From positions 1 to 38,466 of the IMG/VR virus record IMGVR_UViG_3300045971_000434: a stretch of 38,466 nt of DNA. One strand, given 5' to 3'. This stretch comes from a virus. This document shows positions 4,626-38,326 of the stretch, in pieces. Position numbers and translations under genes: made by a program. The notes beneath the pieces are model-generated. The model made no database searches. It was given only the letters and a program-made list of their open reading frames with translations, and had not been told where the DNA came from. Numbering within the stretch: the first letter of the stretch is position 1; every line of letters begins with the position of its first letter.

Positions 4626-5360
4626 TTATTGTTTGCCCTTCAATGATGCGAGATACTCATTTGCGCCCCTGTATTGTGACATTCTATTTGGGTCGTATGC
4701 GTCATTAGCTTCAGCATTACCACCGGGTACTGTTGCAATAGGGTCGGCTTCGCGTGTCTTTAAATTCTTAATTACACGCTGTTCTGTCTCAATTGCAGTA
4801 CGCTTAATGTCCATCATGTTCGCATGAGCAGTCTTTAAATCCCTGAAACCATACTTGTTTGCATGTGTGAACAATGCATTTTCATCAAGTTTTGGGTCCA
4901 ATGATCTAAGTTCAGCAACCTGACTTTCAACCTCTGATTTTACCGCATCTACTCGCGCTTGTTCAGCTTGATAAGTGCTCTGCATCTCTTGGATAGCAGC
5001 TTTTTTAGCTATCTCAATTACTTCTGCATAATCTTTAGGTACATAGTCTGGCTTCTGCCATTCTGGAGTATCATCTCTAGGCTTGTTAATGTCCCTTTCA
5101 CGTTCAATCGCAGCGAGTGCTTGTGATTTACGAGTAAATTCTGGGAGTAAATTTTCATACTCTCGTTTAAGACCAGCAGCATCTACTTTTCTACCATCGG
5201 GTAGAGCGTATAATTCTGGTTCTACTGGCTTAATTTCCTCTGGCTGGGGATCAACCGTTGGTGTTTCTACTACTGTCTCTGGTGTAACTTCGCTTGGTGT
5301 TTCTACCTTTGGAGTAGGGTCACTGCTTGTTAACTCCATGTCTGATTCATATCCATCCAT
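4626..5360 (-). CDS. Capsid scaffold protein
   Basis: A 244-residue acidic protein. Residues about 10-48 are a Pro/Glu/Thr/Val-rich disordered segment (PSEVTPETVVETPTVDPQPEE). A small ordered stretch follows (ELYALPDGRKVDAAGLKREYENLLPEF), then long helices (EVIEIAKKAAIQEMQSTYQAEQARVDAVKSEVESQVAELRSL) and a C-terminal segment with YRGANEYLASLKGK. This disorder-helix-short-basic-tail arrangement immediately upstream of the coat gene is the signature of internal scaffolds that direct capsid assembly and are then released. No protease motif is visible. An alternative start at the second Met (residue 8) is possible. Confidence 0.8.
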   Translation of the reverse strand: MDGYESDMELTSSDPTPKVETPSEVTPETVVETPTVDPQPEEIKPVEPELYALPDGRKVDAAGLKREYENLLPEFTRKSQALAAIERERDINKPRDDTPEWQKPDYVPKDYAEVIEIAKKAAIQEMQSTYQAEQARVDAVKSEVESQVAELRSLDPKLDENALFTHANKYGFRDLKTAHANMMDIKRTAIETEQRVIKNLKTREADPIATVPGGNAEANDAYDPNRMSQYRGANEYLASLKGKQ

Positions 5361-25652: not shown

Positions 25653-25832
25653 ATGGAAGAATGTTGCTATAAGGCGGTACTTGGTAGTACTGATAGATAT
25701 AAGACTCGAAGGATAGGTCGCTGTCATTACATCTGCGACTACTGCGGAAAAGATGTGAGTATGTTTATGGCATTCTTCTTACTATCAGAATTCGGACAGA
25801 GAAAACTAAACAAAATAAAAAATCATGAATAA
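25653..25832 (+). CDS. Small zinc-finger hypothetical protein
   Basis: A 59-residue protein: MEECCYKAVLGSTDRYKTRR, then IGRCHYICDYCGKDVSMFMA and FFLLSEFGQRKLNKIKNHE. The cluster CHYICDYCGKD is a likely zinc site, with a hydrophobic helix after it. Its end overlaps the frameshifted gene by eight bases. Confidence 0.6.
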   Translation: MEECCYKAVLGSTDRYKTRRIGRCHYICDYCGKDVSMFMAFFLLSEFGQRKLNKIKNHE

Positions 25833-26320
25833 GCAAGACGCACTCGATAAAATTGCAACCCATTGAAAAGGATATTGCAGCATTAAAGGAAGTAGTGAAC
25901 AAGCCAGAGGGTGGGAAAAATTGGAGGGCAGAGATTGATGGACAATATTTTGTAGTAGGAGTTGCTGGGGATATTTTAAGATGGGGTGAACATAATTCTA
26001 TATGTGATGACTTTTGTTATAATACACTGAACTATTTCCGCACTAAAGAAGAAGCCGAAGCAAAGAAGGCATATGACATTGCGGTAGGAAAAGTTTCAAG
26101 GATGATAAATGAGTTGAATTGGGAGTGGGAACCTAATTGGGATGACTCTAGTGAATTTAAGTATCATATTTTTTATGATAATAATAATGATACATATACA
26201 AAAACTTCAAATTCATATGTGCAATATCGTCTCACTATCCCATATATAAAGTCAGGAGGAATCGCCGAGCAGATAATCAAGGAGTGTAAGAGTGATTTGG
26301 ATGTGATCTTTAAGAAATAA
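25825..26320 (+). pseudogene. Hypothetical protein interrupted by a +1 frameshift
   Basis: From the ATG at 25825 the frame reads MNKQDALDKIATH and stops at 25866. Removing one C from CCC at 25859-25861 gives ...ALDKIATIEKDIAALKEVVN and continues to 26320, restoring a helical N-terminus and a full protein of about 164 residues (NYFRTKEEAEAKKAYDIAVG, YVQYRLTIPYIKSGGIAEQI). Without the correction the main frame could only start at a TTG at 25853. A one-base indel in a short C run, real or from sequencing, is the likely explanation. Function unknown. Confidence 0.7.
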
Positions 26321-26332
26321 ATAATTTGCCCT

Positions 26333-26382
26333 TTGACAATCTGATCTGTAGGACTTGCATAATACAGCGATAGCTCTATAAT
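26333..26382 (+). promoter_or_regulatory. Sigma70-type promoter of the terminal cassette
   Basis: TTGCAT (26355-26360) and TATAAT (26377-26382) are 16 bases apart, with a perfect -10. Another exact -35, TTGACA, is at 26333-26338. The start would be near 26389, with a strong SD at 26397-26402. This gives the cassette its own control, unlike the rest of the operon. Confidence 0.65.
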
Positions 26383-26407
26383 GGGTTAAGTCAGAAGGGA
26401 GGTCGCC

Positions 26408-26557
26408 ATGACCATCGCTGCTCTTTACGCAAAGTATCAGAATATGCACGTTATCTACGAGTTCCGGCACTTCGACGATGGGATTCATGTAAGAGTAGTA
26501 ACCCCTTGTGAGCGTATACTCATCGAGGAACATGTCATAGAAATCAAGGAGGTGTAA
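26408..26557 (+). CDS. Small cassette protein 1
   Basis: A 49-residue protein: MTIAALYAKYQNMHVIYEFR, then HFDDGIHVRVVTPCERILIE and EHVIEIKEV. It reads as a compact all-beta domain after a short helix. The SD GGGAGG (26397-26402) precedes the ATG by five bases; this and the next gene are the only ones in the genome with clear SD sites. No family is recognised. Codon style and signals suggest recent transfer. Confidence 0.7.
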   Translation: MTIAALYAKYQNMHVIYEFRHFDDGIHVRVVTPCERILIEEHVIEIKEV

Positions 26558-26558
26558 T

Positions 26559-26759
26559 ATGTTCACCATAGTTAAAAGTATGGAAGACATACGGACACTT
26601 TATCGAGACAAAAAGGTTTCGTTTAGCAGGGAATACTGGAAAGACTTTCAGTATATCGTTCGTGTGTACGACAACAAAACTCGAAAAGAGTTAGGTGATG
26701 GATATGTGTTCTATTCATTCTATAAATTGAGTCCACTTAAAGGACTACGGAAGAGATAA
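26559..26759 (+). CDS. Small cassette protein 2
   Basis: A 66-residue basic protein: MFTIVKSMEDIRTLYRDKKV, then SFSREYWKDFQYIVRVYDNK and TRKELGDGYVFYSFYKLSPL, ending KGLRKR. The SD AAGGAGG (26546-26552) lies within the end of the first gene, so the pair is co-translated. It is followed at once by a strong terminator. It is unlike any family I know; the self-contained layout recalls 'moron' genes added to phage operons. Confidence 0.7.
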   Translation: MFTIVKSMEDIRTLYRDKKVSFSREYWKDFQYIVRVYDNKTRKELGDGYVFYSFYKLSPLKGLRKR

Positions 26760-26762
26760 AAT

Positions 26763-26784
26763 AAAGCCCCTATTTAGGGGCTTT
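26763..26784. terminator. Bidirectional intrinsic terminator
   Basis: AAAGCCCC (26763-26770) pairs with GGGGCTTT (26777-26784), eight perfect pairs with a six-base loop and a following T-rich run. It ends the rightward cassette and, on the other strand, the whole late operon, whose last gene stops within the hairpin. Confidence 0.9.
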
Positions 26785-27280
26785 TATAATTATTATTAAA
26801 CTTTGCTACATATGCAGGATCTTGATACTGCGTTGATCCCGGTGGACTAGCATTAGTGAACCCTCTACGGTGGATATCTGCCACCTGTGGGGGCGTATAG
26901 CCCTCACCAGCGAATCTATTTGCCTTATTAGTGATATATCTATCTTGTGCAGTTGATGAGGCTAAAAACTGGTCTCCGGTCATTTTCTGCCCTAAGTACT
27001 TAGGTGCATAGGACTTCAGTTCACCTTCAGTCACTTGATACTTACCAAGGTCGCGCCCCATCTTAGGATCACCAGAGAACTTAGCAAATGTATAAGGATT
27101 ACCCTTCACTATCCCTGTCTCGTTATTAGCGATTGCTGCGAGATACTTCTGCACATCAATCTTTGGGGCAGGAGCAGTTACTGGCTGATGGTTTATTGGA
27201 TTATCTACACTGATGGTAGGATTAAGATACTGTTTTGCCTTACCGATAAGACCTTGTATGAAGTTTTGTTTTGGGTCCAT
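26774..27280 (-). CDS. Transglycosylase-like virion or lysis protein
   Basis: A 168-residue protein. Residues about 45-140 resemble an SLT/lysozyme-like fold: catalytic Glu in AAIANNETGIVKGNPYTF, the GKYQVT motif (typical G-x-x-Q-V/I), and an AdiHRRG end. It probably cuts peptidoglycan glycan strands during DNA entry or lysis. The N-terminal segment (MDPKQNFIQGLIGKAKQYLNP) is like those of internal virion proteins. It is the last late gene, one base from the large ejection-type protein, which supports an injection-linked role. Confidence 0.7.
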   Translation of the reverse strand: MDPKQNFIQGLIGKAKQYLNPTISVDNPINHQPVTAPAPKIDVQKYLAAIANNETGIVKGNPYTFAKFSGDPKMGRDLGKYQVTEGELKSYAPKYLGQKMTGDQFLASSTAQDRYITNKANRFAGEGYTPPQVADIHRRGFTNASPPGSTQYQDPAYVAKFNNNYKSP

Positions 27281-27281
27281 A

Positions 27282-30200
27282 TTACTTCTTATTCAATTTA
27301 GCAAACTCTAGTAGTGTCTGGCTAGTGATAACCTTCTTCTTTAATAAATCAGTTAAGTATGCCTTCCTCTCTCCGGTGCTCATGTCTTTTGAGTTATCAT
27401 ATACCCACTTTGCCCTAAATTCAGGATTGAGTGACTTGATATAACCTTCATTCTTTGTAAGACCATTATTATCCTGCTTTGAAATTGCAATGATTTTATC
27501 AAATGTTTTCCTATCAGTAGTGAGTAAGTTCTTCAAGTATGCCTGTCGCTGCGCCTTGTCTGGCAGTGCTCTCATCTTATCATATTCCTTCTGTGCATCA
27601 GCATTAAACTGTGCACTCTCCTTTAGCTGTTGATCCTTATAGTCAAATATCTTATTCGCTTCCTCGCTATTGGTTGAGCTAAACTTCAGTGGTGCTTCAA
27701 GCATTGCTGATGCTGCCTGATACGCTGGCTTTTTACCTTGGAAATATTTGATTGCCTCACCAACATAAGGATGATTGATGGTAACTCCTATATACTGCGC
27801 AATCTTCTTACGCTGATCTAGTGGAGAATCGGTGTCCTTATAGATTGGATTTCCGAAGTAGTCCTTATTCGCATAGACTTCACTCATTGTTTTTATAGGA
27901 ACTGACAGTACTGAACCAAATTTCTGCGTTGCGTCCTTGATGTCTCCACCTGCAAGTGACATACTTCCTTGGACCATATTACGAGCGAAGGACAGGAATC
28001 CCGGCATGAAGTCGATATACATGACATCCTTATTTGGAAGTGGAACCCTCACCGCAAACTCTCTACCCTTTGGATTCTGCCATATATGATGACCATTAAG
28101 CTTGTAGTTGAGCGCATCATAACCAGCAAAGGTTATTGCCATACCGATGAGGAGCTTTCTATTCGCTGCGAGTGATGGGTTAAGTGGTGCACGCATACCA
28201 CCAACATTCTTTGCCATATCTATGCCTGCTGCACCTGTATTTTTTAGAACATTAGCGATACCTTCACGATACTTTGGGGCAAAGAAGAAGGCAGTAAGCA
28301 TATCCTCCATCCATTTTGCGCGACCAGTGAAGCCCGTGAGTCCAAATTGCTTCTTTGTAACATCACCAGCGAGCTTCTGTGCCTCCTGTGAGCTCATTCC
28401 TTTAGCGAGCGCACCCTTGTATGTATCCTCAAACAACTGAACATGCATCTGTGGCATGAAGGAGTTGAAGGTCTTCTCATTGAATGCCTTGTTAAACTGC
28501 TCACCGATCACTCCCTTTATATCTCCGAGCTTCCTAATATCAAAGGTATGGACCAGATTCTTATATGCGTTCTGATAGTTCGCAATATTCTTTGTTTCAT
28601 CTATTCCCTGATTAGCCATCATTTGAATGACTGGGGCCTTTTCTGTAAACCATACCTTGCTTGCGTCATTAGAATTAGCGCGTAAGAACGCTACTATTGC
28701 CTTTGGATTACCTGCGGTAGATTCCTTGATCATTTGTCCAGTAGAGAAGAAGTTCTGATTGGTACGTGGAATACCAGCAGAAAGTGTGATCTCTTGTGCA
28801 AGGCTCGATGCACGAGCACCTGCATGAACTAATCGCTCTGGGAATGATGCGTTTGATTGTGAACGGAATATACCATTAAGGATATTCCCGATCTTAGGCT
28901 CCGCATAATATCCATGAGGTGAGAACTCCAAGTTTACCGGTACAAAGTTTAATGGCTTATGTGTAGATGATGCAGGAACAATCTTACCAGCTTCAGTAAG
29001 TTGTGTGATCAAGTCCCTATTGGCTAGATTTTTACCTATCTGCTCAACATTATGTGCTGCCAACTGCTCCGGGTGAGTGAACTTTGGTGTTCCATCATAT
29101 TCCATACCAGTTTTATAATCTGGGAATACTGATTCTTTTGTAAATGTTGGATTAACGCCAAGTCTCTTTGCTACTTCGGGTTCTAATTCACCACCCTTCA
29201 TATATTCCTGTGCTGCTGCATCAGTTAATCCTTTACTTTCAAGATACTTCACCACATCAGGAAATTTTTCCCACACGTGTGGAACATAATTCTGTTTTTC
29301 TGGGACGGTAAACCCTGCATCGCGCTCATTCTTCAGGAGTGTATCAAACTTTGTAGCAATAGCCTTTGTTTCTGGTGTCTGAACTCCTGCCTGACGATCA
29401 AGGATAGCCTGCCATCCCTTATCTTCTGGGATATTGAGCTGTCCTATTTCTCCATTTGCAGCGACTCGTGACTGAATAATCTTCGTATTCCAGTCATGGA
29501 ATATCTTCTGACTTGCTGGGTCAAGATGTGCGACAGGATTAAGTGCTTCCTTTATTGACTGGACAATACCAGTCTTTTGTGGCATTTGTGACAATCGTGA
29601 GGCTTTTCCATCCTGAGCATTTGATTGGTCAAATATGTCACTAAGTTTTTGTTCATCACCTAGAATACCATCATTATATATAACTTTGATACCTTTTTTT
29701 TCAAATTGTTTACCTAGTTCTTCTGCTGAAATATATTCTGGTGTTTTTCCATTAGAGAAATTCCATAAAATTTTAGTATTCAATCCCTCTGATTTATTCA
29801 AAGGTAATGTTACATTTTCAATGTTATCCAGTGGAATGTCTTTTGAATGTCTATATTCAAAACCTTTATATGTTTCCCCTTTAGTTGTACCGTCAGGTGC
29901 ATCATATACATCAACAGCATTTTTTATTTTAAAAACAGGACCATATGAATGGGCTACACCCCTTGATCCACTTAACGAAATAACATTTTCACCAGCATTA
30001 TCAAGCCTACTTACTGATGTTTTTAATTTTCCACTATCTAATATGGATTTTAAATTTGTTATACTTGCTCCGTGATATTGTCCGGTTTCAGGCAATTTCT
30101 CTAAACGTGTTGCACCAGGATTTAGATCGTAAGATTGTGGTGTATAAAAATCTTCTATAAATTTGTTTTTATCGGTGTACCCCTGTGCAATATTTTTTAT

Positions 30201-30785
30201 AGGAGCATACTGTTTTTCCTCTTTTCCTGCCTGAACTATTGCCTGTTCACCCTTACTTAGAGCTAGTGGGATACCTTCAGTTGAGTACTTTAAGGGCAAA
30301 GTTAAGCCACTACCAACCTCTCTTGCACCCTGTTTAGCCGCTTGCGAGAGCTCACCTTCTGCACCAGCACCCGGAGTGGCAAATGACATCGCTAAAGCCC
30401 CTACACGCTGGCTGGCGAGCTTCCTATACGTGTCAAAGGCTTGCTTATCCTTATAACCAGAGTCAATATATTGCTTATGCGCTGCAAGTTCCTCTGGAGT
30501 ACCAACAAGTTGATCCGTGACCGCACTTGCTCTTGATTGTAGACCTGTCTTAAACGCCTCTCCATAGGTCTTCGGAGTCGTTGGAGCATATATTCCCGGT
30601 AAACCACCAGCGATGACCTTCTTCAGCTCATCTGATGGACTAGCAGGAGAATTACGTACCATATTAGATACACCACTCTTAATAGAATCCCATAAAGATG
30701 GTTTCTGTGTAGCAGGAAGAACAGCCGGTGTACTATTGGCTGTTCCCTGTTGATTTGGAGTTGTTGGTGTATTCCAGAATGACAT
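27282..30785 (-). CDS. Large ejection-type internal virion protein with ART-like domain
   Basis: An 1167-residue protein. A Pro/Thr-rich N-terminus precedes the segment at residues about 230-385, which reads like an ADP-ribosyltransferase: H238 in QYHGASITNLKSILDSG, S270 in ISLSGSRG, Y281 in AHSYGP, and E310 in GFEYRHSKDIP. The rest is long and helical, with the style of T7/P22 ejection proteins that form a channel into the cell (for example TGERKAYLTDLLKKKVITSQ near the end). The DNA for the ART-like part (about 29615-30080) is more AT-rich than the flanks. An injected toxin or RNA polymerase-modifying function is possible but inferred. It ends one base before the transglycosylase-like gene. 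Confidence 0.7.
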   Translation of the reverse strand: MSFWNTPTTPNQQGTANSTPAVLPATQKPSLWDSIKSGVSNMVRNSPASPSDELKKVIAGGLPGIYAPTTPKTYGEAFKTGLQSRASAVTDQLVGTPEELAAHKQYIDSGYKDKQAFDTYRKLASQRVGALAMSFATPGAGAEGELSQAAKQGAREVGSGLTLPLKYSTEGIPLALSKGEQAIVQAGKEEKQYAPIKNIAQGYTDKNKFIEDFYTPQSYDLNPGATRLEKLPETGQYHGASITNLKSILDSGKLKTSVSRLDNAGENVISLSGSRGVAHSYGPVFKIKNAVDVYDAPDGTTKGETYKGFEYRHSKDIPLDNIENVTLPLNKSEGLNTKILWNFSNGKTPEYISAEELGKQFEKKGIKVIYNDGILGDEQKLSDIFDQSNAQDGKASRLSQMPQKTGIVQSIKEALNPVAHLDPASQKIFHDWNTKIIQSRVAANGEIGQLNIPEDKGWQAILDRQAGVQTPETKAIATKFDTLLKNERDAGFTVPEKQNYVPHVWEKFPDVVKYLESKGLTDAAAQEYMKGGELEPEVAKRLGVNPTFTKESVFPDYKTGMEYDGTPKFTHPEQLAAHNVEQIGKNLANRDLITQLTEAGKIVPASSTHKPLNFVPVNLEFSPHGYYAEPKIGNILNGIFRSQSNASFPERLVHAGARASSLAQEITLSAGIPRTNQNFFSTGQMIKESTAGNPKAIVAFLRANSNDASKVWFTEKAPVIQMMANQGIDETKNIANYQNAYKNLVHTFDIRKLGDIKGVIGEQFNKAFNEKTFNSFMPQMHVQLFEDTYKGALAKGMSSQEAQKLAGDVTKKQFGLTGFTGRAKWMEDMLTAFFFAPKYREGIANVLKNTGAAGIDMAKNVGGMRAPLNPSLAANRKLLIGMAITFAGYDALNYKLNGHHIWQNPKGREFAVRVPLPNKDVMYIDFMPGFLSFARNMVQGSMSLAGGDIKDATQKFGSVLSVPIKTMSEVYANKDYFGNPIYKDTDSPLDQRKKIAQYIGVTINHPYVGEAIKYFQGKKPAYQAASAMLEAPLKFSSTNSEEANKIFDYKDQQLKESAQFNADAQKEYDKMRALPDKAQRQAYLKNLLTTDRKTFDKIIAISKQDNNGLTKNEGYIKSLNPEFRAKWVYDNSKDMSTGERKAYLTDLLKKKVITSQTLLEFAKLNKK

Positions 30786-37201: not shown

Positions 37202-38326
37202 TTATCCTATCTTATAACACCAGAAATTAGTCATAGTGTTTGCACTTGTATTTGATGCACTATTCGTATATCCAAGGAGCTCAATGTAATCATTAAGTGC
37301 AAATTGGTATACCCCACTTACTCCTGCACGACCATTTGTTGAACCTGGTGCTCCTCCAACATTTCCTGTAATAAATGTTGTTCCATTTAATCTTATTTTG
37401 AGATTAACACTTTGTGATGTAGCTGCAATTTCAACAGCTCCCCCAAAGTTATAATAACCAGCAGTTGTAATAGTAATACGAGTATTATTGGTTACATTAT
37501 CGTGCATTGTTGAAGTATCAAATGATTCAGTCTGAAATGTTACTGCCCCATAAGTTGGGTCTGTTGGTAAACTAAACACTGCATTTTGGAATACTCTACA
37601 TCCAATAAATGAACCAGAAGCAGAGGCTTGACTTACCCAGTCTGTACCATTCGAAGTTAGCACATTTCCTGACATTCCTGGTGCTGCGTGTGGTACATTG
37701 TGTCCATCTGAAATAGCCTTAGCTGTTACAAACCCAACGTTGTCTGTAAGAGCATCAAGCGTTGCCCCCGTAATAAGAGCGTTAGCCGTTGCCCCAGTAG
37801 CTATACCTGCCAACTTCGTATCAAGTGTTGTTGTATATGAAGCTGTTGTATTAGTTAGAACTGTTGCAAGGGGTTGCTTTCCATTTAACTGTGTTTGAAT
37901 TGCTGAGGTAACTTCCTTTACATAGGAAATTTCAGTGAGAGAAGGATATGTTGCTACTGCTAAAGTTCCTTGTGCGGTAGCAGAAGTCCAGTAAGAAAGC
38001 TCGTTAGTTGTACCTGACCCCGTGACCGTACCTGCACCCTTTGTATTCAATTGTGTTTGAATTGCTGAGGTAACTCCCTTTACATAGGAAATTTCAGTGA
38101 GGGAAGGATATGTTGCTACAGTCAAAGAGCCAAGAGTTGATGCTCCTGTCCAGTATGTTATTTCATTTATAGTACCTGAGCCACTAATCGTTCCACCTCC
38201 GGGCAAATCAACTAAAAGCCTATGTGTTACTGGATCAGCCCATAAAACTACAGGTGTAAATCCATCAACATCAGATACGGCAAGTAGTGTAGGAACCCTA
38301 TTTTCATCTCGTGAAGCATTAGACAT
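37202..38326 (-). CDS. Tail fibre with repeats and C1q-like tip
   Basis: A 374-residue protein. The N-terminal DEN-VPT-DG-ADP module is shared with the gene at 53-325. It is followed by two 54-residue repeats (GSGTINEITYWTGASTLGSL, ATYPSLTEISYVKGVTSAIQ and close variants), a helical/collagen-like link, and a C-terminal beta domain (residues about 240-374, GAVTFQTESFDTSTMHDNVT, GYYNFGGAVEIAATSQSVNL, NDYIELLGYTNSASNTSANT). The C-terminal pattern fits a C1q/TNF-like trimeric tip, as found in receptor-binding proteins of several phages. It probably recognises the host surface. Its start lies 2 bases from the gene at 53-325 on the circle. Confidence 0.75.
   Translation of the reverse strand: MSNASRDENRVPTLLAVSDVDGFTPVVLWADPVTHRLLVDLPGGGTISGSGTINEITYWTGASTLGSLTVATYPSLTEISYVKGVTSAIQTQLNTKGAGTVTGSGTTNELSYWTSATAQGTLAVATYPSLTEISYVKEVTSAIQTQLNGKQPLATVLTNTTASYTTTLDTKLAGIATGATANALITGATLDALTDNVGFVTAKAISDGHNVPHAAPGMSGNVLTSNGTDWVSQASASGSFIGCRVFQNAVFSLPTDPTYGAVTFQTESFDTSTMHDNVTNNTRITITTAGYYNFGGAVEIAATSQSVNLKIRLNGTTFITGNVGGAPGSTNGRAGVSGVYQFALNDYIELLGYTNSASNTSANTMTNFWCYKIG
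37890..38119 (-). repeat. 68-base direct repeat in the fibre gene
   Basis: Positions 37890-37957 and 38052-38119 match over 68 bases with two differences, offset 162 bases, or 54 codons. They encode the two fibre repeat units, and could expand or contract in frame by recombination. Confidence 0.85.

Follow-up and report, generated by a model that had tools for sequence, protein, structure and literature searches.

Two short genes lie in tandem on the plus strand of this phage genome, at the point where its two arms converge. Gene 1 (26408–26557) encodes a product of 49 aa with a pI of 5.7 and gene 2 (26559–26759) one of 66 aa with a pI of 9.9; the two abut, the AUG of gene 2 lying one base past the stop codon of gene 1. 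Both appear in the ORF listing as described in the initial annotation, a reading made from the sequence alone in which they were seen as a self-contained cassette. An antisense ORF of 112 aa spans the same region and is best read as a shadow ORF. The window, by which we mean the whole stretch of DNA analysed, is one entire IMG/VR record of 38,466 bp. Its ends carry a terminal repeat of 191 bp, in which 190 positions match (one mismatch), and the genome is therefore probably circular or complete. We also note that the proteins encoded at 53–325 and 37202–38326, both of which overlap this repeat, match the same short repeated segments in three related genomes (G001–G003).

The two genes are set apart by their Shine–Dalgarno (SD) sites. 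The SD of gene 2, AAGGAGGTG (26546–26554, +), overlaps the last codons of gene 1 and pairs with the 16S tail at −15.3 kcal/mol, making this the strongest start in the genome. The SD of gene 1, AAGGGAGGT (26395–26403, +), presents GGGAGGT with a 6-nt gap to the ATG and ranks second at −12.5 kcal/mol, compared with a mean of −2.6 kcal/mol over all chosen starts. The start ranked third (−11.5 kcal/mol, at 5360) owes its energy to a GGAGG about 18 nt upstream, beyond the usual spacing. The longest unbroken anti-SD match runs to 9 and 6 nt at the two cassette genes and never exceeds 5 nt at about 67 other starts. The GGGAGG and AAGGAGG sites singled out earlier are thus real, and the accompanying claim of an otherwise SD-less genome holds in that these matches stay within 5 nt at every other start. 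Of the 1648 ATGs, just 4 reach −12.5 kcal/mol, and no two tandem ORFs of at least 45 aa with SDs of that strength turned up in any of 400 Markov-simulated genomes, which argues that the pair is neither a product of chance nor a set of shadow ORFs. A hairpin at the start codon of gene 2 was no better than those of shuffled sequences (z −1).

Candidate promoters lie upstream of gene 1. The best of these, TTGACA-N19-CATAAT (26333–26363, +), has a perfect −35 hexamer and ranks 7th among 76,862 positions scanned with an approximate sigma-70 PWM, and its hexamers (26333–26338 and 26358–26363) constitute the sole TTGACA-N15..20-[CT]ATAAT combination in the window. The promoter originally assigned to the cassette, TTGCAT-N16-TATAAT (26355–26382, +), is present and has a perfect −10 element, but its −35 element matches at 3/6 positions, the consensus scan omits the pair and it ranks lower, at 17. 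Further top-scoring sites are found in divergent regions around 19.3–19.4 kb and 12.0 kb, so that sigma-70-type promoters seem to be native to the phage and are no mark of foreign origin. Bacteroidota promoters differ from the sigma-70 type, and the sigma-70-like promoters of the phage thus make a Bacteroidota host less likely.

Downstream of gene 2, a hairpin at 26763–26784 (z −2.4) scores as a terminator on both strands. The stop codon (26774–26776) of the convergent 168-aa gene (26774–27280, −) lies inside it, and the terminator is therefore not clearly part of the cassette. Indeed, a strong two-way hairpin can also be read from the G001 sequence at the convergence, directly after the last rightward gene, and together these observations indicate that the hairpin is probably the terminator of the phage arms, used by the cassette. 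A strong terminator is thus present as claimed, but its attribution to the cassette itself is doubtful. The cassette does sit at the convergence, with the final rightward-arm gene before it and the two-way arm terminator after it, and no target-site repeats were found flanking it. The last plus-strand arm gene (25825–26320) looks split: the ATG at 25825 opens a frame of 13 codons followed by a stop, and a 155-aa frame begins at a TTG at 25853, one frame off from that ATG. This appears to reflect either a frameshift (real or from assembly) or a TTG start. On the other side, the gene at 27282–30785 (−) encodes a protein of 1167 aa whose middle part shows 40% identity to its relative in G001 and which has no profile match; it is likely to be a large protein that is part of the virion or is injected.

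The phage belongs to a group that has terminase, portal-like, capsid-like and neighbouring proteins in common. Its closest long relative is G001 (41,214 bp, terminase 89%), and G002 and G003 (about 40.5 kb, GC 56–58%) are more distant, with terminases about 71–72% identical. The nearest match of the capsid-like (MCP-like) protein is to a TM7 phage, at only 31% identity. Across the group, taken as the whole window, G001 and fragments, GC ranges from 32 to 59%, nearly all genes are without SD sites and, in the low-GC members, the start regions are A-rich. G001 is the one relative that spans the convergence, and it does not contain the cassette. This counts against conservation of the cassette in all relatives, but the test is a weak one because the genes beside the convergence in G001 are different, with no immediately flanking gene in common except the diverged relative of the 1167-aa gene. 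For the flanking plus-strand arm genes and the convergent 168-aa and 1167-aa genes, the viral contigs offered no relatives beyond G001.

The products had been called unfamiliar, and the searches agree. Pattern scans and tblastn with the two proteins against viral contigs, 84,980 prokaryote genomes, phages and plasmids recovered no homologue, and neither protein matched an entry in Pfam, PHROGs, NCBIfam, PADLOC or the PDB. Pattern scans detect close relatives only, and distant homologues may therefore exist. With blastn, the best matches to the cassette were short and low-scoring and fell in the terminator hairpin or the last part of gene 2. The single-sequence AF2 model of gene 1 is confident (pLDDT 89) and predicts a compact alpha-beta-beta-beta domain; gene 2 is also modelled as alpha-beta-beta-beta, weakly (pLDDT 64). 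Despite this similarity, paralogy of the two genes was rejected (shuffle p about 0.65–0.73). Fold searches returned nothing at E ≤ 0.001, the weak matches being mostly to unnamed small phage proteins.

We consider the locus to be a two-gene accessory cassette of the moron type that probably came from a genetic background in which SDs are used, and put the probability of this reading at roughly 0.58. The case for acquisition is built on the SD sites, the lack of detectable relatives and a parallel in G002 and G003 described below, and not on composition. The atypical synonymous codons and the absence from G001 probably add to it. The cassette fits the synonymous codon use of the phage less well than do all 113 same-length chunks of its large genes (z about −2.3). 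In sliding windows across small genes of the early arm, however, codon fit falls to −0.25, below the −0.17 of the cassette. The codon comparison thus marks the cassette as atypical relative to the large genes and not relative to the whole early arm. The initial proposal of a recent moron from an SD-using donor is accordingly retained in part: the unique SDs, the codons and the absence from G001 agree with it, but GC content and k-mers are ordinary, the terminator is probably the phage's and no donor was found.

An alternative that we regard as unlikely is that these are native early genes whose strong SDs evolved for high or regulated translation in a host whose starts are otherwise SD-free, with no recent transfer. 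The composition fits this well, since the cassette and the genome have the same GC content (40.3%) and the k-mer distances of the cassette fall at percentiles 46 and 25. Sigma-70-like promoters also occur in divergent regions elsewhere in the phage, and orphan small genes are common in the same arm. However, no other gene of the phage and no gene of G001 has an SD as strong as those of the cassette, and the low codon fit of the cassette also speaks against a native origin.

For the acquired cassette, the closest parallel comes from its own phage group. G002 and G003 carry an SD-led two-gene unit (L034:7617–8729 and L037:8429–9540, respectively) in which a gene of 57–58 aa is combined with ArdC (ArdcN + MPTase-PolyVal), each gene has an AGGAGG SD and the unit closes with a hairpin-T terminator. 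ArdC is an antirestriction protein that is widespread on conjugative plasmids (PMC5512222). As in the window, two genes with strong SDs and a terminator at their end stand in a related SD-poor phage, where fewer than 30% of starts have an anti-SD match of 4 nt or more; the proteins and the location differ, and a recognisable antirestriction protein is present there and none in the pair studied here. The comparison suggests that, within this phage group, genes bearing an SD are accessory. The cassette also resembles described phage morons (PMC2147016, PMC7067206) in being a short unit between phage genes with a candidate promoter, a hairpin end, different translation signals and a patchy distribution. 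It differs from them in that the terminator seemingly belongs to the phage arms, no donor was found and both its function and its independent expression are putative.

Under the accessory-cassette reading, a local sigma-70-type promoter would give one short mRNA ending at the hairpin, and read-through from the upstream arm is possible. Both genes would be translated from their strong SDs, with gene 2 translationally coupled to gene 1, as expected from an SD within the end of gene 1 and an AUG one base past its stop. The products may be small host-interaction proteins. We found no direct support for the roles initially proposed, namely superinfection exclusion, anti-defence or toxin–antitoxin function. 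If the locus is a cassette, anti-defence or host takeover would be our leading guess, a tentative one held at less than even odds, and the SD-led ArdC unit in the same phage group is the main reason to lean towards anti-defence.

A toxin–antitoxin pair, with an acidic 49-aa antitoxin first, a basic 66-aa toxin second and coupled translation, is compatible with the gene order, sizes, pI values and coupling. It is nonetheless improbable, as no library profile, PADLOC included, and no significant fold connects either protein to a type II family, and the predicted compact domain of gene 1 has no evident DNA-binding part. More doubtful still is the idea that the strong SDs act as a regulatory address, opening a separate translational channel through ribosomes with a free anti-SD in a host that mostly initiates without SD pairing; its one positive argument is the strength of the SDs themselves. 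A separate comparison is with Flavobacteriales rpsU, which has a strong SD in SD-less genomes (PMC9976891). What the two share is an outstanding SD (below −13 kcal/mol) where the genome is otherwise devoid of them, but the cassette does not encode bS21 and the sigma-70-like phage promoters do not suggest a Bacteroidota host. A search of the window with PF01165 for a phage-encoded bS21 gave no match. Least probable of all is an assembly artefact in which foreign sequence was fused to the contig: the cassette occurs in one record only and its translation signals differ, but it fits neatly into place, with a stop codon on one side and the arm terminator on the other, its GC content matches and the contig closes through its terminal repeat as a circular assembly would.

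The acquired accessory cassette would thus be of a known kind carrying unfamiliar cargo, a pair of small orphan proteins of which one has a confidently predicted mini-fold. Should genes with SDs in SD-less phages generally prove to be recent accessory genes, the strength of an SD by itself would be a simple flag for anti-defence or host-interaction cargo in uncultured phages.
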